From Halanaerobium sp. (GTDB taxonomy: Bacteria; Bacillota; Halanaerobiia; Halanaerobiales; Halanaerobiaceae), in contig JAGYNO010000002.1 of NCBI GenBank assembly GCA_018399955.1, forward strand, positions 1 to 64,000: DNA of 64,000 bases, given 5' to 3'. Below, piece after piece: positions 2,981 to 50,217 of the stretch. Under the pieces are notes generated by a model. The model was not told where the DNA came from, did not search any database, and worked only from the letters and a program-made list of their open reading frames with translations. Position 1 is the first letter of the stretch, and each line of letters begins with the position of its first letter. The position numbers were made by a program, and so were the translations under genes.

Positions 2981-3703
2981 TCAAACTTCTCTTTTTATTA
3001 TTTCTGCCAATTCTTCTAAACTGCCCTTCCACTCTATTTTATGAACATTATCTTCAGCTTCTATCAGATTATCATTAACAATAACTGTTTTAATACCAAC
3101 ATCTGCAGCAGCTGTATCTTCTTCCATATCATTACCGATCATCAGACAATCTTCTGGAGCCTGGTCGATTTTATCTAAAATCTCCAGATAATAATCTGGA
3201 TTTGGTTTAGCAAAACTCATATTTTCATAACTTGTAATAAAATCAAAATCATCTTCAGACAGACCGGCCCAGTTCAGTCTTTCTACAACGGCTTTTTTGG
3301 GGAATAACGGATTTGTAGCCAGGACCAGTTTTTTATCTTTACCTTTTATATATTTTATTAATTCAGAAGCAATACTGCTGTCAAAATCAAAATACTTCCG
3401 CAGTTTCGGAAATTTATTCTGATAAAAATGGTCAAATCTCTTCTTAAGTTCTTGCTGATCACCTGATGTGATTTTAGCTAAAAAATCTTCCATAAAAATT
3501 TCCTGATTACTCTTTTTCCCATCATTTTCTATCATTTTTCTGGTAGACTCCATGAGAATACGGATAAATTCTTCTCTGCTCTCACATAAATCAGAAAACT
3601 CTCTAGACAAAGAATCGAAATAATATTCTAAAAAACTATCAATATTTATATCAAGCAGTGTACCATCTAGATCAAAAAGAAATGTACTTTTATTTTTAAA
3701 CAA
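2981..3703 (-). CDS. HAD-superfamily hydrolase
   Basis: FLFDLDGTLLD motif I; CLMIGNDMEEDTAAA motif IV. Confidence 0.85.
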   Translation of the reverse strand: MFKNKSTFLFDLDGTLLDINIDSFLEYYFDSLSREFSDLCESREEFIRILMESTRKMIENDGKKSNQEIFMEDFLAKITSGDQQELKKRFDHFYQNKFPKLRKYFDFDSSIASELIKYIKGKDKKLVLATNPLFPKKAVVERLNWAGLSEDDFDFITSYENMSFAKPNPDYYLEILDKIDQAPEDCLMIGNDMEEDTAAADVGIKTVIVNDNLIEAEDNVHKIEWKGSLEELAEIIKREV

Positions 3704-3743
3704 TGCTCAATTACCCCCTAAAATATTATTAAATTATCTATAA

Positions 3744-4235
3744 TTATGACAGCTTTTCCATAAGAGGAAGGAAATTAGTATTATCAACTAAAATATTAAC
3801 AAATTCTTGTAAATATCTGCGGTCTATCTCATCAAAACGGGCTAAACTAGGACTATCAATATCGAGTACAGCTATAACTTCTCCAGCAGCAATTACCGGA
3901 ATTACTATTTCTGATTTAGAATTTGGATCACAGGCAATATGATCTGGGAACTCATTAACATTTTTAACCAGCATTATCTTCCTTTGAGCATAAGCCTTTC
4001 CACAAACCCCTCTCCCTTCTTCAATTCTTACACATGCTGTTTTACCCTGAAAAGGTCCCAGAATTAACTCTTCATTTCTCCAGAGATAAAAACCTGCCCA
4101 ATTTATATCATCCAAGAACTGATATAAAATTGCAGAACTATTGGCAAGATTTGCAAGCCAATCTTTTTCTTCACCCAACAGTGCTTTAAAAGCTTGATTC
4201 ATCTCCTGATATCTTTTCTTTTTATTATTCATCAA
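3744..4235 (-). CDS. GAF-domain protein, free methionine-(R)-sulfoxide reductase-like
   Basis: DINWAGFYLW, GPFQGKTACVRIEEGRGVCGKAY, HIACDPNSKSEIVIPV characteristic of fRMsr with conserved Cys residues. Confidence 0.85.
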   Translation of the reverse strand: MMNNKKKRYQEMNQAFKALLGEEKDWLANLANSSAILYQFLDDINWAGFYLWRNEELILGPFQGKTACVRIEEGRGVCGKAYAQRKIMLVKNVNEFPDHIACDPNSKSEIVIPVIAAGEVIAVLDIDSPSLARFDEIDRRYLQEFVNILVDNTNFLPLMEKLS

Positions 4236-4287
4236 TCTACTCTCCTTAATATTCAGCGTTATTTTAGATAGAATTACTATTTGATCC

Positions 4288-4327
4288 TTCTCTTAGCAAG
4301 CCCCGCAGTTTGCAAGCAGAGAAAACT
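4288..4327. repeat. Dispersed intergenic repeat copy A (hairpin)
   Basis: TTCTCTTAGCAAGCCCCGCAGTTTGCAAGCAGAGAAAACTTCTATCA-type sequence, related to copy B at ~52850. Confidence 0.5.
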
Positions 4328-4387
4328 TCTATCATTTATCTTAATTAGAAGCTAATATTATGAACATTTTTATTAAATGAAATGAAA

Positions 4388-5314
4388 TTATAAGCCCAGA
4401 AAAAATGGTACAAGTACTGGAACTAAAGTTGAAAGTACAGCACCACTAATAAAAGCCGGTATGACAACAGCCTCTCCCCCTGATTCTTTAACCAGAGGTA
4501 ATGTAACATCCATAGTTGTGGCACCTCCTGGAGCAATAGCTGCCAGACTGCCGAAGTGTTTTACCACAAAAGGTAGTAGAAATACTGTCATTAGCTCTCT
4601 AAATACATTAGATAGAAAAGCTAGAGATCCAAGTTCTGCACTGTGCAGCTTAGAAATCAAAACACCTGAAAGACTGTACCAGCCGAATCCTGCTCCAACT
4701 GCTGCTGACTCAGAAACAGCAAAACCCAATACTAATCCCAATAAAATAGCTCCGATAAGACTGCCGGCAGCTATCAAAAAAGGAATGGCTAGTATTTTCC
4801 ATCCCATCAACTTAAGATCAGCAATGATTTCTCGGCTGGCTCCGATATCAACCCCAACTCCAAAAAGCAGTACAGCCAGCGAATAATTTGTCAGGGGATC
4901 AATCCAGCTGTAATATTCAGGCTCCAGTAAAAAATAGCCTATAAAAATCCCTACTATAACAGACAGAAAAATTATCAAGCTCAAATTACTCTCAACAGCT
5001 TCTGTCTCCACCTGCTCATTTTTACCACTTAAAAGAAAATTATTTAAATTTAATATCTTAGTAAAAGAAACTATAAATAGCACACTAAAAACTATAGTTA
5101 TTAATGCAAAAAGGAAAGCCTGTAAACCTATTCGACCCAGCTGCATAAATATTTCTTCATTACTTCCCAGATTTGCTCCCATTGCAGCCAAGAGAATAAT
5201 TAAACCCAATTTTGTAATATTATCTGAAATATTTAAAAAATTACTTTTCTCATCAATTTGAAAGCCCAGAAAAATCCCACAAGCTAAAAAGATTAAAATT
5301 AAATAAAAATCCAA
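4388..5314 (-). CDS. lysO: LysO-family (DUF340) lysine exporter
   Basis: Multi-TM; GFGWYSLSGVLISKLHSAELGSLAFLSNVFREL is a LysO-type motif. Confidence 0.8.
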   Translation of the reverse strand: MDFYLILIFLACGIFLGFQIDEKSNFLNISDNITKLGLIILLAAMGANLGSNEEIFMQLGRIGLQAFLFALITIVFSVLFIVSFTKILNLNNFLLSGKNEQVETEAVESNLSLIIFLSVIVGIFIGYFLLEPEYYSWIDPLTNYSLAVLLFGVGVDIGASREIIADLKLMGWKILAIPFLIAAGSLIGAILLGLVLGFAVSESAAVGAGFGWYSLSGVLISKLHSAELGSLAFLSNVFRELMTVFLLPFVVKHFGSLAAIAPGGATTMDVTLPLVKESGGEAVVIPAFISGAVLSTLVPVLVPFFLGL

Positions 5315-12135: not shown

Positions 12136-12867
12136 CTATACTATTTCTTCTACTCGGCCTCGAATTCCTTCTCCTAAATCATCAAAATCATAATTTTTTG
12201 CAGGTTTAGATGTAACAACCCTGCCTTTTTTGAGAAAGGCAATTCTATCTGCTAATAATTCCATCTGTCTTCTGTCATGGGTAACCATAATTACTGTCAT
12301 ATCATCTGTTACAAGATCAGCAAAATGCGAGTTGAAAAATTGTATGCTGTCTTCATCCAGACTTGTAGTTGCCTCATCCACGAATAAAACTTCTGGCTCG
12401 GTGATTAAAGCTCTGGCAATAGATACCTTTTGTTTTTCTCCACCAGAAAGAGTATGTACTGACTGATTTAATAGTTCAGTTATTTCTATTTTTTCTGCAA
12501 TTTCCTTAACATTTTTATGAATTTCCTTTTTGTTTATTTTTCTCAATTTAAGAGGTAAGGCAATATTATTATATACATCCCCCCGATAAAGGTAAGGATC
12601 CTGCCAAATAACAGAAAATTTTCTTCTTAAATTTAAGTATTCCCCATTTTTGGAAAGAAGTTTACCTTTATAATAGACCTCTCCTTCAAAATCTCGATCA
12701 ACCAAACTTAAAATATTTAGCAAAGTGGTTTTCCCACTGCCATTAGCACCAATAATAAAATTAAATTTATCTTTTATTACAGAATATTGTTCAATATTTA
12801 ATATTTCTTTTTCCCCTATTTTCTTTTTCAATCTTTTTACTTTTAATATTTTATTACCTCTATTCAT
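12136..12867 (-). CDS. tupC: Tungstate-type ABC transporter ATP-binding protein
   Basis: Walker A GANGSGKTT, LSGGEKQK signature; adjacent to TupB/TupA-like genes. Confidence 0.85.
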   Translation of the reverse strand: MNRGNKILKVKRLKKKIGEKEILNIEQYSVIKDKFNFIIGANGSGKTTLLNILSLVDRDFEGEVYYKGKLLSKNGEYLNLRRKFSVIWQDPYLYRGDVYNNIALPLKLRKINKKEIHKNVKEIAEKIEITELLNQSVHTLSGGEKQKVSIARALITEPEVLFVDEATTSLDEDSIQFFNSHFADLVTDDMTVIMVTHDRRQMELLADRIAFLKKGRVVTSKPAKNYDFDDLGEGIRGRVEEIV

Positions 12868-13603
12868 ATTGCTCTCCTTCCTGTAAAAAGTAAACTATAA
12901 AATTAATTGAAAAAGAGAGAATTAATAAAATAAAACCTAAAGCCAGTGCAAAAGCAAAACGCCCCTTATTTGTTTCAAGAGCCATCGCCGTCGTAATAGT
13001 TCTTGTAACACCTTTAATATTTCCACCAAGCATCATAGATATTCCTATCTCCCCCAATACTCTACCAAATCCTGCTATAACAGCCCCTATAATACCATAT
13101 CTAGCTTCCATTAATAACAATTTGAACTGCTGCTTTTTATTAGCCCCCATCGATTTTGCAGTTTTATACATCTTTTCATCGATGGAAAATATGGTGTTTC
13201 TGACCAGAGCCGTTAAAAGTGGAATGATCAAAATCACCTGACCGGCTATAATCCCAGGTAAGGTAAATAACATGTCATATTCTCCCAGCACCCCGCGTCT
13301 AGAAATAAGAGAATATACCGTAATCCCAACAACAACGGTAGGCAGGCTTAAAAGTGCATTTAAAATTACATTAAAAACTTTTTTGGCAGCAAATTCTGTT
13401 CTCGATATGATAACTGCTGCAGGTATAGAAATTAATGAAGCAATTATAGTTGAAGATGTAGATAGTCTAAGAGACGTAGAGACTACTTTCAACAACTCTT
13501 GATCCATTGTTATAATTAAATTCCAGGCTTCCCCAAAAGCATCCATGTAATAATTCAAATTTCTACCCCCTGAATAATATTTATCTATTATAAATAAGGA
13601 CAT
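12860..13603 (-). CDS. tupB: Tungstate-type ABC transporter permease
   Basis: MetI-like permease, EARYGIIGAVIAGFGRVLGEIGISMMLGGNIKGVTRTITTAMALE typical of TupB. Confidence 0.88.
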   Translation of the reverse strand: MSLFIIDKYYSGGRNLNYYMDAFGEAWNLIITMDQELLKVVSTSLRLSTSSTIIASLISIPAAVIISRTEFAAKKVFNVILNALLSLPTVVVGITVYSLISRRGVLGEYDMLFTLPGIIAGQVILIIPLLTALVRNTIFSIDEKMYKTAKSMGANKKQQFKLLLMEARYGIIGAVIAGFGRVLGEIGISMMLGGNIKGVTRTITTAMALETNKGRFAFALALGFILLILSFSINFIVYFLQEGEQYE

Positions 13604-13765
13604 TTGTCCTAAATGTAAGATTTTAAAAAAGGATATCTGCCAACTTATTCAACAGAAAAAATTTATAAAATTAGCAAGATACCCTTTTTAGAGTGGTAAG
13701 TCTTTAAATAATTAAGTTTTAAAAAACATTATATTTTAATAATCTAAAAAGTTACGTTTAATATG

Positions 13766-14596
13766 TTATTCTTCTAATTCGTCAGCTTCAATAGCACTTG
13801 GGAAAAACAATTGTTCTCCCTGTCTTGAATAGCTGTTAATTATTCCCTGACCCTGTTGAGAGGTAACATAACCAACAAAAGCCATCGCCATCTGGTAATT
13901 TACGTGAGTATGATAAGCAGGGTTAATTGGAATAATACCATATGGATTAAACAGGGCAGAATCTCCACTGCTTAAAATCTCAAGATCAATTTCTCCACTA
14001 TAAGCAAGATATGTACCTCTATCTGCAAGTATATAAGCTTCTCTTTCATCTGCCATATTAATACTTGCCCCCATACCCTGTCCACTTTCTAAATACCAGG
14101 AACCATCAGGATTAAGATCAGCCATATCCCAGAGCGAAAGTTCTTTTTTATGAGTACCTGAATCATCTCCTCTAGAGACAAATTCTGCTCCACTATCTGC
14201 AATTGTATGGAATACATCTGCTGCAGACTCCATACCTTCAATATCAGCTGGATCAGAAGGTGGACCTAAAACAACAAAGTCATTATACATTACATCCCGC
14301 CTATTAACACCATAACCTGCTTCCACAAACTCGTCCTCTGCTTCACGGGCATGGACAAAAATTATATCTGCATCACCATTTTCGCCAAGTTCAATTGCCG
14401 CCCCAGTACCTACGGCAACTACATCAACACGTACATCAAATTTCTCTTCAAAAGGTGGTACAAGTTCATCCAAAAGCCCAGAATTTTCGGTGCTTGTTGT
14501 AGTAGCCATCACAAGTTTTTCCTGGGCCACAGCGGCAGTCGAAACACTAATAAGCAGTATCAATACAGATAATAAAACTAAAATTCTTTTTCTCAA
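13766..14596 (-). CDS. tupA: Tungstate-type ABC transporter substrate-binding protein
   Basis: ATTTSTENSGLLDELVP, SRGDDSGTHKKELSLW typical TupA motifs; signal peptide. Confidence 0.9.
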   Translation of the reverse strand: MRKRILVLLSVLILLISVSTAAVAQEKLVMATTTSTENSGLLDELVPPFEEKFDVRVDVVAVGTGAAIELGENGDADIIFVHAREAEDEFVEAGYGVNRRDVMYNDFVVLGPPSDPADIEGMESAADVFHTIADSGAEFVSRGDDSGTHKKELSLWDMADLNPDGSWYLESGQGMGASINMADEREAYILADRGTYLAYSGEIDLEILSSGDSALFNPYGIIPINPAYHTHVNYQMAMAFVGYVTSQQGQGIINSYSRQGEQLFFPSAIEADELEE

Positions 14597-14675: not shown

Positions 14676-14717
14676 AGTTAAGGCGGATCAGCGTTTAAAA
14701 ATTTAATCACCACTATC

Positions 14718-14815
14718 ACTCCTTTCCATTCCGGGAGGCAGATGTGTTTCCACAAACACCCTATCGGTATTTAAACCATGGCTTTTTAGAAGCTTTAGCT
14801 TTAAATACTCGGAGT
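14718..14815 (-). ncRNA. Molybdenum/tungsten cofactor (MOCO RNA motif) riboswitch upstream of tupABC
   Basis: Minus strand ACTCCGAGTATTTAAA...TTTAAATACCGATAGGGTGTTTGTGGAAACACATCTGCCTCCCGGAATGGAAAGGAGT; GGGYG..GCCTCCCG and TGGAAAGG match the MOCO motif core; P1 ACTCC/GGAGT, P2 GTATTTAAA/TTTAAATAC. Confidence 0.85.
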
Positions 14816-14913
14816 TTTTTGACTTTTCATACATTTATAATATATAATTTTTTTTACACTGTCAAGCAGTAATTAAATAAAATCCCTAGATTTGTATTAT
14901 TATCCAATTTAGA

Positions 14914-16676: not shown

Positions 16677-16705
16677 TAAAAAAACCGGAGCTGATTGCCC
16701 CGGTT
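16677..16705 (-). terminator. Terminator of the 50-aa orphan gene
   Basis: Minus strand AACCGGGGCAATCAGCTCCGGTTTTTTTAAG. Confidence 0.8.
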
Positions 16706-16732
16706 AATAATATCAATATTTTCGACTGATTA

Positions 16733-16885
16733 CTAATAGCCTCCCATCATGTAATAATTGATTAGAGCACTATCTTTTTGTCTGTCATGTTTAAGATCTG
16801 TGTCATATTTTACGCTTTCTTCAAGCTGTTCAAATTCGCGAATTTCATTTCTCTTAACGAGCCTGTGCTTAAAAATACTTTTCAT
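16733..16885 (-). CDS. Orphan small protein, 50 aa, unknown function
   Basis: Minus strand MKSIFKHRLVKRNEIREFEQLEESVKYDTDLKHDRQKDSALINYYMMGGY*; AAGGGGGA RBS, own promoter and terminator. Not in the supplied ORF track. Confidence 0.65.
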   Translation of the reverse strand: MKSIFKHRLVKRNEIREFEQLEESVKYDTDLKHDRQKDSALINYYMMGGY

Positions 16886-16918
16886 TAGTAATTCCCCCTT
16901 TAGTAGTTAATTGATGAG

Positions 16919-17007
16919 GGAACATACTCGCTGCACATCTACTTTGTTCCATAAATACAGAACACCGACTCTACAAATTCACTCTTCTGCTCATGATCAG
17001 TCGGTTC
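16919..17007 (-). ncRNA. Structured 5' leader of the 50-aa gene (two hairpins)
   Basis: Hairpin 1 GAACCGACT...AGTCGGTGTTC (16960-17007) starts at the predicted TSS; hairpin 2 GGAACA...TGTTCC (16919-16950). Confidence 0.5.
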
Positions 17008-17013
17008 AATTAG

Positions 17014-17042
17014 ATTATACTACTCATAATTTAATTTAGCAA
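17014..17042 (-). promoter_or_regulatory. Sigma-A promoter
   Basis: TTGCTA-17 bp-TATAAT on minus strand. Confidence 0.65.
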
Positions 17043-17409: not shown

Positions 17410-18159
17410 ATGAAAGAAAGTAACTTTATGCTTAAAATTTTAAATACTACTGCAGTTTTCTTAACAATTTTTGTTAATTTTTTGGCAAACTATCTCCCAA
17501 TTAATGGTTTGAATACAGGAGAAGTGTCAGCTAATTATGAAAATCCTTTTACACCTGCTGGTTTTACCTTCTCTATCTGGGGTTTAATCTACTTATTGTT
17601 AATCGTCTTTGCAGTCTATCAATTTACCGGCAGTGGGAAAATCAAAGAGAATTTCAGTACAGGGCCATATTTAATACTCGCATCTGCCGCAAATATAGCT
17701 TGGATTTTTTCATGGCATTACCAGTATATATACTTATCGATGTTTGTCATTTTACTGCTCCCCCTCTTTTTATTTCCCATCTTTAAAAGAGCAAACGGTT
17801 TTTCTGATTATTCTTCTGCTGAATATATATCTCTAAAACTCCCCTTCAGCATCTATACAGCCTGGGTAACTATCGCATCACTTGCAAATTTAATGGTCAC
17901 CCTTGTTTATTTCAAACAGAACTGGCCTGATAAATTTTTGCTTATCACAGCTGTGATTGCTCTGCTGCTGGGCCTCTATATAACCATCAAAATAATCGAT
18001 GAATTTAAAGACACAGCTTTCTCTTTTGTTGTAGTCTGGGCATATTTTGGAATTATCTCTGCTCAGTTAAACTCTACAAGACCTGAACAAATCATTATCA
18101 TCACAGCTGCTCTTTCTATTATAATTGTAATTTTTAAACTGATATCAAAAAAAGCTTAG
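17410..18159 (+). CDS. TspO/MBR-like (tryptophan-rich sensory) membrane protein
   Basis: NPFTPAGFTFSIWGLIYLLL motif and multi-TM profile. Confidence 0.75.
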   Translation: MKESNFMLKILNTTAVFLTIFVNFLANYLPINGLNTGEVSANYENPFTPAGFTFSIWGLIYLLLIVFAVYQFTGSGKIKENFSTGPYLILASAANIAWIFSWHYQYIYLSMFVILLLPLFLFPIFKRANGFSDYSSAEYISLKLPFSIYTAWVTIASLANLMVTLVYFKQNWPDKFLLITAVIALLLGLYITIKIIDEFKDTAFSFVVVWAYFGIISAQLNSTRPEQIIIITAALSIIIVIFKLISKKA

Positions 18160-22827: not shown

Positions 22828-24185
22828 CTAAAATACTTCTTCAGCTGTCTCCTTATTTATAACTGCAAAGACCTCTCTGAGGGGCAGGTCTTTTTCTGCA
22901 GCTATCCTGGCACAGTCATCATATTCTGGAGAAAATTTAATCAGCTCCCCATTATAATAAGCAGCTTTAATTGTAACCTTACCTAAGGATGAAAGAAATT
23001 TATGATACTTCCTTTCAAGGCTGCTCCTTTGAATATCGATAGTTCTTATCCCTAGGGTAGTAGTTTCTTGATAAATTATTTTTTCAAGCTTTTCTTGATC
23101 TTTTCTGCTGCAGAGAACATTAAGTTTATTTGCAGGACGGTTTTTTTTCATTAGTATACTGCTTAAATAAACATCTTTCGCACCCTTTTGCAGTAATTTC
23201 GGGAAAAGATAGGAATATATTTCTCCACTCATATCATCAATATTCGTTTCTAAAATTATTAAATCTTCTTCGGTTTTTTTTTACACTCTTCAGCCTGATA
23301 AATACGCAGCAGGTTGGCGGTCTCAAAATCTTTCTTTCCAGAACCATAGCCGATCTTATTTATCTTAAGTTCGGGCATAGCTTTAAATTCCTCAGCTAAT
23401 GTTTTGATTATCGCAGCACCGGTTGGTGTAACTAGTTCACTTCTGATGCCGGTAGAATAAACAGGAACTCCCCTGAGTATTTCTACTGCTGCAGGTGCAG
23501 GTACCGGGATTCTGCCGTGAGCAGCATCAACAAAACCGGTTCCCAGTGGTACAGGTGAAGAATATATATGTTCAGGAGACAGCATATCTATTAAAATTGC
23601 TGTGCCAACGATATCTATAATAGAATCTACAGCACCTACTTCATGAAAATGAACTTCTTCTATACTTTTTGCATGTACCTTTGCTTCGGCTTCTGCAACC
23701 TGCCTAAAAATATCTATACTCATTTTTTTAACATCTGCATTCAGTTCACTATTAGTAATCATCGCCTTGATATCATTAAAATTACGGCTGTGATGTGAAT
23801 GCTCAGCATGACTAGAATGACTGTGGTGATGATCGTTTGCTGTATGTGAATGTCCTGCATGGTCGTGATCTGCATGAGGATGTTCTGAATGCTGATGATC
23901 ATGATTACCGCAGCCTCCACAGCCCTCTTGATGACTGTCATGTTGAGGATGAGAATGATTTTCATGATGATCCGGATGTTCTTCATTTTCTAAAATAACT
24001 TTAAAATCCGAAGCAGTGATGCCGTTTTTCTGCAGCTTTGTAATCTCTATCTCATAACCAGAAAGATCCAGTTTATTTAATTCTTCTAAAAAATCATCTT
24101 TATCAATCCCAAGATCAAGCAGAGCTCCGATAGTCATATCTCCACTTATCCCAGAATGAATATCAAAATATAAAATATTAGCCAT
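22828..24185 (-). CDS. larC: LarC nickel-insertion protein, two ORFs (larC1 23259-24185, larC2 22828-~23273) joined by a likely -1 frameshift
   Basis: larC1 MANILYFDIHSGISGDMTIGALLDLG; larC2 frame EEDLIILETNIDDMSGEIYSYLFPKL; A9 slippery run at the junction (23274-23282). Confidence 0.85.
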
Positions 24186-24187
24186 TA

Positions 24188-24958
24188 TTAACCTTCCTTT
24201 CGCGCTTTTTCTATCTGCAGCACTATTGTGCTTGCCAGATAAGCCGCACCAAAACCATTATCTATATTTACTACACCAACACCACTGGCACAGCTGTTGA
24301 GCATTGTCAGCATTGCTGAAAGTCCGCCGAAGTTTGCACCATAGCCAATACTTGTCGGAACTGCAACCACAGGTTTGTCAACAAGACCGCCAACCACACT
24401 TGCCAGCGCACCCTCCATACCAGCCACAACAATGATAACTTCCGCTTCATCCAATTTATCTAAACTTCCCAGAAGGCGGTGCAGACCAGCTACACCAACA
24501 TCATAAAGGGTTTCTACATTGTTCCCCAGCGCTTCTGCAGTTACTACAGCCTCTTCTGCTACAGGAATATCAGAGGTACCACCACTTACAACAAGAATTT
24601 TACTCTTATTTTTCTCGAGCTTCTGTTTTTCAATAAAAATCATTTTAGACCGCTCATAATATTTAGCTTCTGGGGCCAACTTTTTGATCCTCTGATATAT
24701 CTCTTCATTTGCCCTGCTGGCGAGTATATTGCTCTCGTTTCTGAGCATTTCCTCAACTATTCCTTCAATTTCATCAAGAGATTTACCTTCACAATAAATC
24801 ACCTCAGGATAACCATTACGAATACTGCGGTGGTGATCAATCCTTGCAAAACCGAGATCTTTGTAGGGAAGATCTTTTAAAGATTCTGCAGCCTCATCTA
24901 CCTCCATTTCTTGATTTTTTACTTTTTCTAATATTTTTTTCAACTTTTTTTTATACAT
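24188..24958 (-). CDS. larB: LarB, nickel-pincer cofactor biosynthesis carboxylase
   Basis: AIR-carboxylase-like VVSGGTSDIPVAEEAVVTAEALG...VVAGMEGALASVVGGLVDKPVVAVPTSIGYG. Confidence 0.93.
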   Translation of the reverse strand: MYKKKLKKILEKVKNQEMEVDEAAESLKDLPYKDLGFARIDHHRSIRNGYPEVIYCEGKSLDEIEGIVEEMLRNESNILASRANEEIYQRIKKLAPEAKYYERSKMIFIEKQKLEKNKSKILVVSGGTSDIPVAEEAVVTAEALGNNVETLYDVGVAGLHRLLGSLDKLDEAEVIIVVAGMEGALASVVGGLVDKPVVAVPTSIGYGANFGGLSAMLTMLNSCASGVGVVNIDNGFGAAYLASTIVLQIEKARKEG

Positions 24959-49814: not shown

Positions 49815-49992
49815 GATACACCCCCTCATATCCCGTGAGATTTTGGTGTTCAAATACAGGCAGGTCTTCCGGCTCGGTTTATAAAAAAATAACAAACAGT
49901 CTACCTTCCCAGTTTCCCAGTGGTATAATTGACTGCTTAAAAACCTTACGGCGGCGGGACCGCAGAGGACTTTAACCTCTTTCCCGTTTTAA
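49815..49992 (-). ncRNA. Cobalamin (AdoCbl) riboswitch
   Basis: Minus strand ACGGGAAAGAGGTTAAAGTCCTCTGCGGTCCCGCCGCCGTAAGG...CCACTGGGAAACTGGGAAGGTAGACTG...AAACCGAGCCGGAAGACCTGCCTGTATTTG (B12 box). Confidence 0.93.
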
Positions 49993-50217
49993 TATAATTA
50001 TATTTAACTGCTGAAAACACAGAAAATATAATTATAACCCATATTTAAAACTATTCAGTTGTAAAATAATTTAATTTGTAATTAATTTTAATAAATTAAA
50101 TTTAAAATTTTCCCTATAATTTGTTTATCTTTATTACTTATCTTTATCTTATAATATTATTCCACTAAAAATCAAGCACAAATTTTTGCTCTTTATGATA
50201 AGTAATTGCTAAATAAG

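Follow-up and report, generated by a model that had tools for sequence, protein, structure and literature searches.

A conserved leader RNA and its small-protein gene in Halanaerobiales, a candidate default-OFF translational switch

The window analysed here, a stretch of 64,000 nucleotides from Halanaerobium sp., carries on its minus strand, at positions 17042-16683, a small unit made up of a promoter, a structured leader, an open reading frame (ORF) for a 50-amino-acid peptide and a terminator. Our analyses confirm that this unit is real and strongly conserved. With a probability of about 0.6, we interpret its leader as a translational switch specific to the order Halanaerobiales, which would be OFF by default and in which a conserved effector acting on an RNA core would control the synthesis of one small protein. 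The unit comprises the following parts.

17014..17042, minus strand: sigma-70 type promoter, TTGCTA-17-TATAAT, 10/12 matches
16960..17007, minus strand: region of hairpin H1 (from folding and covariation), with a stem core of 7 bp in which ACCGACU (17005-16999) pairs with AGUCGGU (16970-16964)
16945..16950, minus strand: GGAACA, the anti-sequestor arm, forming the 5' side of hairpin H2
16925..16944, minus strand: conserved core AAGUAGAUGUGCAGCGAGUA, consensus A.AGUAG..GUG.AGCGAG, recognised by cross-family identity, a putative effector-binding region
16916..16924, minus strand: shared arm UGUUCCCUC, with GGAACA (H2, Shine-Dalgarno sequence free) or the Shine-Dalgarno sequence (sequestor) as its possible partner
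16891..16899, minus strand: Shine-Dalgarno sequence AGGGGG, by folding also the right arm of the sequestor
16733..16885, minus strand: 50-aa ORF MKSIFKHRLVKRNEIREFEQLEESVKYDTDLKHDRQKDSALINYYMMGGY, from the ORF list and homologues
16683..16705, minus strand: intrinsic terminator AACCGGGGCAATCAGCTCCGGTT+TTTTTAAG, 27 nt past the stop codon

The promoter, the ORF and the terminator had all been proposed in an earlier sequence-only reading of this DNA, and all three are present at the positions listed. The predicted transcription start lies just 5' of H1, the leader measures 123-128 nt, and the transcript is predicted to be monocistronic and about 330 nt long.

Leader and ORF occur together in 23 genomes of Halanaerobiales, one unit per genome, so that the conservation on which the earlier reading had made its case depend is borne out by 22 genomes besides that of the window (G000, which is 76% complete). 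The unit is found in 14/14 genomes of the window's family, 12 of them from the genus Halanaerobium, and in two other families of the order. A peptide search over 151 relatives retrieved homologues from 11/11 other Halanaerobium genomes (E 1e-5 to 1e-8); those from the two other genera of the same family were weaker. A covariance model built from 14 leaders (R1) recovered the leader in the two further families, and a second model (R2) added the unit of the genome G025. All 23 units possess the leader, an AGGGG-type Shine-Dalgarno sequence and an ORF of 39-52 codons, and an intrinsic terminator follows the stop codon at a variable distance of 9-32 nt in 23/23. A clear promoter of the TTG-17-TATAAT/TATACT/TACAAT type lies just 5' of the leader in 22/23 units, the exception being G025. 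A profile search of the order with the peptide returned the same 23 units and no further credible match in Halanaerobiales.

Outside the order we encountered no credible match, either with a degenerate core pattern run against about 85,000 species or with the covariance model run against 399 genomes across the phylum. The pattern gave 17 matches, 16 of them in Halanaerobiales and one, evidently due to chance, at a coding site of Rhizobium, and the four out-of-order matches of the covariance model whose sequence was read appear to be coding sequence or chance. Weak second matches within the order (G024:C31, G012:C22, G012:C13 and G033:C113) lie in or at coding sequence and were likewise dismissed. 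No match was obtained in families f2, f3, f4 and f5 and part of f7, and the unit is therefore not universal in Halanaerobiales. The core pattern also hit 85 sites in a viral collection, where it is too short to mean much, and phage and plasmid records contained no match to the peptide family.

Folded on its own, the window leader is only mildly better than shuffled sequences (z = -1.57, against z = -2.05 for the whole transcript), and the case for the unit therefore rests on comparison: the presence of a conserved leader in 22 further genomes, covariation and a coding-type pattern of substitution in the ORF place it beyond chance. The 7-bp core of H1 is part of the minimum free energy (MFE) structure of the window leader. 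In an alignment of 22 leaders (21 distinct) fitted to the covariance model, 94% of cells are paired; the covariation score is 0.283, compared with 0.143 (sd 0.012) for shuffled alignments, and slid partners reach no more than 0.10. Among the 21 distinct leaders, each of the six consensus pairs of H1 has changed on both sides. Counts of this kind are inflated by the fit to the structure, but the leaders of family f7 have entirely different H1 sequences that nonetheless still pair. Of the first hairpin as originally drawn, CCGAC/GUCGG with its neighbours belongs to the consensus, whereas the outer GAAC/GTTC pairing does not. The f7 leaders (L061, L063, L064 and L065) also possess an additional, lineage-specific helix, made up of two complementary segments, UUCACC 3' of H1 and GGUGAA within the core; it was not seen in the window's family.

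The second hairpin, GGAACA/TGTTCC, needs to be reinterpreted. Its arms can indeed pair, but in the MFE structure of the window leader this helix is absent: GGAAC is paired with an upstream GUUCUGU, and the UGUUCCCUC arm is paired with the Shine-Dalgarno sequence (GGGGGAAU). In essentially every unit the 3' arm of H2, UGUUCCC, can alternatively pair with the Shine-Dalgarno AGGGGG, and because this arm is at the same time an anti-Shine-Dalgarno sequence, we prefer to view H2 as one of two states in competition. The two pairings, sharing UGUUCCC as would the two states of an expression platform, are predicted to be mutually exclusive, and the leader therefore looks like a translational switch that would be OFF at equilibrium.

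The sequestor hairpin, folded alone, forms in 23/23 units with -7.7 to -14.6 kcal/mol, the weakest being that of G025, where the register is shifted. Its paired cells amount to 96%, its loop is free to drift in sequence and length, and where outer pairs have been lost (G012 and G000) inner pairs have been gained; in f7 the stem is longer (13-14 bp). Keeping the Shine-Dalgarno sequence unpaired costs 4.3-13.4 kcal/mol across units and 5.5 kcal/mol in the window leader. Dinucleotide-shuffle tests of the sequestor duplex give modest results unit by unit, with most fractions at 0.01-0.15. As for the GGAACA/UGUUCC helix, 93.6% of its cells are paired, compared with 46-52% in slid controls; its columns hardly vary and accordingly display no covariation. 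The helix is weakened in G018 and G021, where GGAACA is partly lost, and lost in G025, so that the proposed ON state draws its support from conservation.

The following mechanism would be consistent with these features. In the nascent RNA, H1 and then H2 (GGAACA-core-UGUUCC) would form before the Shine-Dalgarno sequence emerges, leaving the latter free and translation ON. Once transcribed, the Shine-Dalgarno arm, AGGGGG(C/A)(C)AU, would capture UGUUCCC and turn translation OFF, this being presumably the more stable state without the effector. A trans-acting effector, which may be a metabolite, an ion or a conserved RNA-binding protein, would recognise the purine-rich core between the arms of H2, hold this hairpin together and thereby turn synthesis of the peptide ON. 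The mildly basic product is probably a small intracellular protein, or a partner of another molecule via its C-terminal motif of the YY[M/L]xGG[Y/F] type.

The peptide varies from 39 to 52 residues among the 23 units. Over the whole ORF, differences at codon positions 1, 2 and 3 number 714/586/1215, and within the final 14 codons they number 127/11/349; indels within Halanaerobium are multiples of three. Judged by these substitutions, the ORF evolves as coding sequence and its product is translated, in keeping with the orphan peptide gene of the earlier reading. Searches of Pfam, NCBIfam, PHROGs and PDB gave no match and no known RNA-binding domain. The MMGGY ending singled out in the sequence-only reading does belong to a conserved motif, YYMMGGY in most of Halanaerobium, but it proves to be the genus version of a broader YY[M/L]xG[G/R]Y/F/M pattern (YYMLSGY, YYMNGGY, YYMSGGM, YYLHGGF, YYLNGRIM and YYLFGRY also occur), which in f6 gives way to the aromatic ends NGFYFF/NGFFF.

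Comparison between families reveals that the RNA is the better conserved partner, as the core is 77% identical and the peptide only 29%. Identity is also high in the shared arm (94%), GGAACA (82%) and the Shine-Dalgarno arm (76%), and low in the spacer (38%) and the H1 region (30%), the latter being conserved as structure. Conservation of the core but not of the peptide argues, as far as sequences can tell, for a conserved RNA-binding effector and against simple autoregulation.

The neighbourhoods of the unit differ between families while its four parts, from promoter to terminator, remain linked. With changing neighbours and a promoter and terminator of its own, the unit is autonomous, as the earlier reading had proposed. 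Several names of neighbouring genes used below were read from sequence by eye. The window contains the following neighbours and riboswitches.

12136-14596, minus strand: Tup-type ABC transporter operon
14703-14826, minus strand: Moco/tungsten riboswitch (RF01055), directly upstream of the Tup-type ABC transporter operon
17410-18159, plus strand: 249-aa membrane-like ORF, no Pfam match
22828-24958, minus strand: LarC-like Ni-insertion ORF and AIR-carboxylase-domain (LarB-like) ORF, near a NikR-like regulator
49842-50029, minus strand: cobalamin riboswitch (RF00174), E 1.8e-17

In the window's family, the unit is situated within a syntenic block that includes Ni-insertion (LarC-like) genes, among others, and usually also the Moco riboswitch with its Tup-type ABC transporter. 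The riboswitch follows immediately downstream of the peptide unit in G012 and G013, and sugar genes are usually inserted between the two in Halanaerobium. A link of the unit to tungsten or molybdenum as a ligand was considered and set aside, since the proximity reflects synteny shared within one family and the unit lies elsewhere in the others. Conserved in most members of the window's family, the 249-aa membrane-like ORF adjoins the unit, usually in divergent orientation. The LarC gene of the window apparently occupies two separate ORFs (23259-24185 and 22828-23232), which we take to correspond to the split known for LarC1/LarC2. In f6, an ABC-F-like ORF and a tRNA gene precede the unit, and a methyltransferase-like ORF follows it; in three f6 genomes (L058, L059 and L062) the tRNA gene is about 100 nt upstream. 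In f7 the unit adjoins transporter-like ORFs. Transposase-like ORFs (IS30-type by eye) occur just upstream of the unit in G021 (L163, about 3408-4461), parting it from its old upstream neighbour with the promoter kept intact.

This variable context bears directly on one alternative, namely that the peptide ORF is an upstream ORF at whose C-terminus a stalled ribosome would decide whether transcription passes the terminator and continues into the gene beyond. A conserved motif right before the stop codon, a terminator 9-32 nt further on and a downstream gene that is usually on the same strand would all suit such an attenuator. However, the downstream position is taken by sugar genes, by the Moco riboswitch with the tungstate-type ABC transporter, by the methyltransferase-like ORF or by transporter-like ORFs, depending on the genome, and the rex-like ORF that comes next in G025 is convergent with the unit. 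There is thus no consistent main ORF downstream on the same strand, either between or within families, the distance from stop to terminator varies, and we reject attenuation of the downstream gene on context, considering it very improbable. It is also conceivable that changes in temperature or in ionic conditions are enough to melt the sequestor, as in an RNA thermometer or a salt-dependent untranslated region that works without a dedicated effector. The element is, indeed, a simple Shine-Dalgarno-sequestering hairpin of -7.7 to -14.6 kcal/mol, stronger in f7 units; such a device would have no need of the 20-nt core and GGAACA, both of which are conserved although they lie outside the hairpin, which makes the idea improbable, if less so than attenuation.

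Two further explanations assign the conserved RNA or the peptide a different role. Ribosomal proteins bind their own leaders, and the basic peptide might similarly bind its leader and favour the sequestered state. The strict one-to-one link of leader and ORF in a single copy per genome agrees with autoregulation, and so do the basic character of the peptides (net charge +1 to +7) and their lysine-rich N-terminus. Nevertheless, the contrast between the conserved core and the diverged peptide, whose C-termini in f6 are altogether different, is the opposite of what co-evolving partners should display, a repressor seems unnecessary where OFF is already the more stable state, and AlphaFold predicts a single helix of low confidence (mean pLDDT 66, pTM 0.29) with no RNA-binding fold; we regard autoregulation as unlikely. 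A dual-function RNA, whose core would pair with other RNAs in trans while the transcript also encodes the peptide, had been raised in the earlier reading and seems to us less likely again, though slightly ahead of the thermometer. The idea fits a transcript that is short and autonomous, having a promoter and a terminator of its own, and the core is largely unpaired in the MFE structures of many units, as a seed would be, but the conserved elements are tied in cis to the Shine-Dalgarno sequence, and core-like sequences elsewhere in three genomes were limited to a few matches with 3 mismatches.

With respect to known RNA classes, searches of Rfam 15 with the window, the leader (E<=10), 14 homologous loci (E<=5) and nine distant loci (E<=1) yielded no family match over the leader, only chance-level or unrelated hits. 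The earlier statement that the leader is not a recognised riboswitch is thus upheld, and its description as a candidate new cis-regulatory RNA remains the best reading of a structured, conserved leader that Rfam does not match. Most members of the family contain a UGGA-like sequence reminiscent of T-box leaders (RF00230), but the UGGN is not kept (AAGGAACA, ACGGGACA and AATTGACA occur) and no Rfam match appears at permissive thresholds, so we discarded this identification. Compared with riboswitches that sequester the Shine-Dalgarno sequence at the level of translation, the leader shares a conserved core beside a platform with one strand that pairs with either an upstream arm or the Shine-Dalgarno sequence; it differs in having no Rfam family and a single gene, for an orphan small protein, and its switching effect is a prediction. 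Measured against a riboswitch core, H1 covaries in 6/6 pairs and the core is 77% conserved, while H2, which would frame the core, is without covariation. Metabolite riboswitches usually precede several genes, and one copy per genome, always before the same gene, is unusual and counts against such an assignment. The more specific reading, in which the leader would be an unrecognised riboswitch-like class of Halanaerobiales whose ligand would bind the A.AGUAG..GUG.AGCGAG core and turn on the orphan small protein, the RNA rather than the protein being the conserved part, is one that we offer tentatively, as a real but lesser possibility.

SR1/SR1P of Bacillus subtilis, a dual-function sRNA, is likewise a small transcript that stands alone, equipped with a promoter, a terminator and a small-protein ORF; in contrast to it, the conserved RNA segment of the present unit is tied to its own Shine-Dalgarno sequence, and the peptide is not known to be related in sequence to SR1P. 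The nearest described arrangement that we found is the odc1 motif (uORF-25-1) of alpha-proteobacteria, which precedes a large main ORF and encodes an 11 aa peptide (PMC8632094). It resembles our unit in having a structured leader, a stem that contains the ribosome-binding site and a short, conserved peptide ORF (PMC8632094), whereas here the ORF has 39-52 codons, is the only gene of the unit, is followed by a terminator and occurs in Halanaerobiales. Dual-function sRNAs as a class are discussed elsewhere (PMC7430163). Halanaerobium is unmentioned in the main text of the structured-RNA surveys that we checked. The unit thus appears to represent a new RNA-plus-small-protein family of a known kind, resembling a Shine-Dalgarno-sequestering riboswitch or a protein-responsive leader.

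The family is compact and testable, offering 23 natural variants and a two-state model with exact positions, and its conserved core can be used as bait. It also provides an example of an mRNA in which conservation is higher in the leader than in the encoded protein. If the effector is a protein, the leader would define a new regulon; if it is a small molecule or an ion, the leader would represent a new riboswitch class in halophilic anaerobes, and should the riboswitch-like reading be true, the unit would constitute a dedicated sensor-effector pair.
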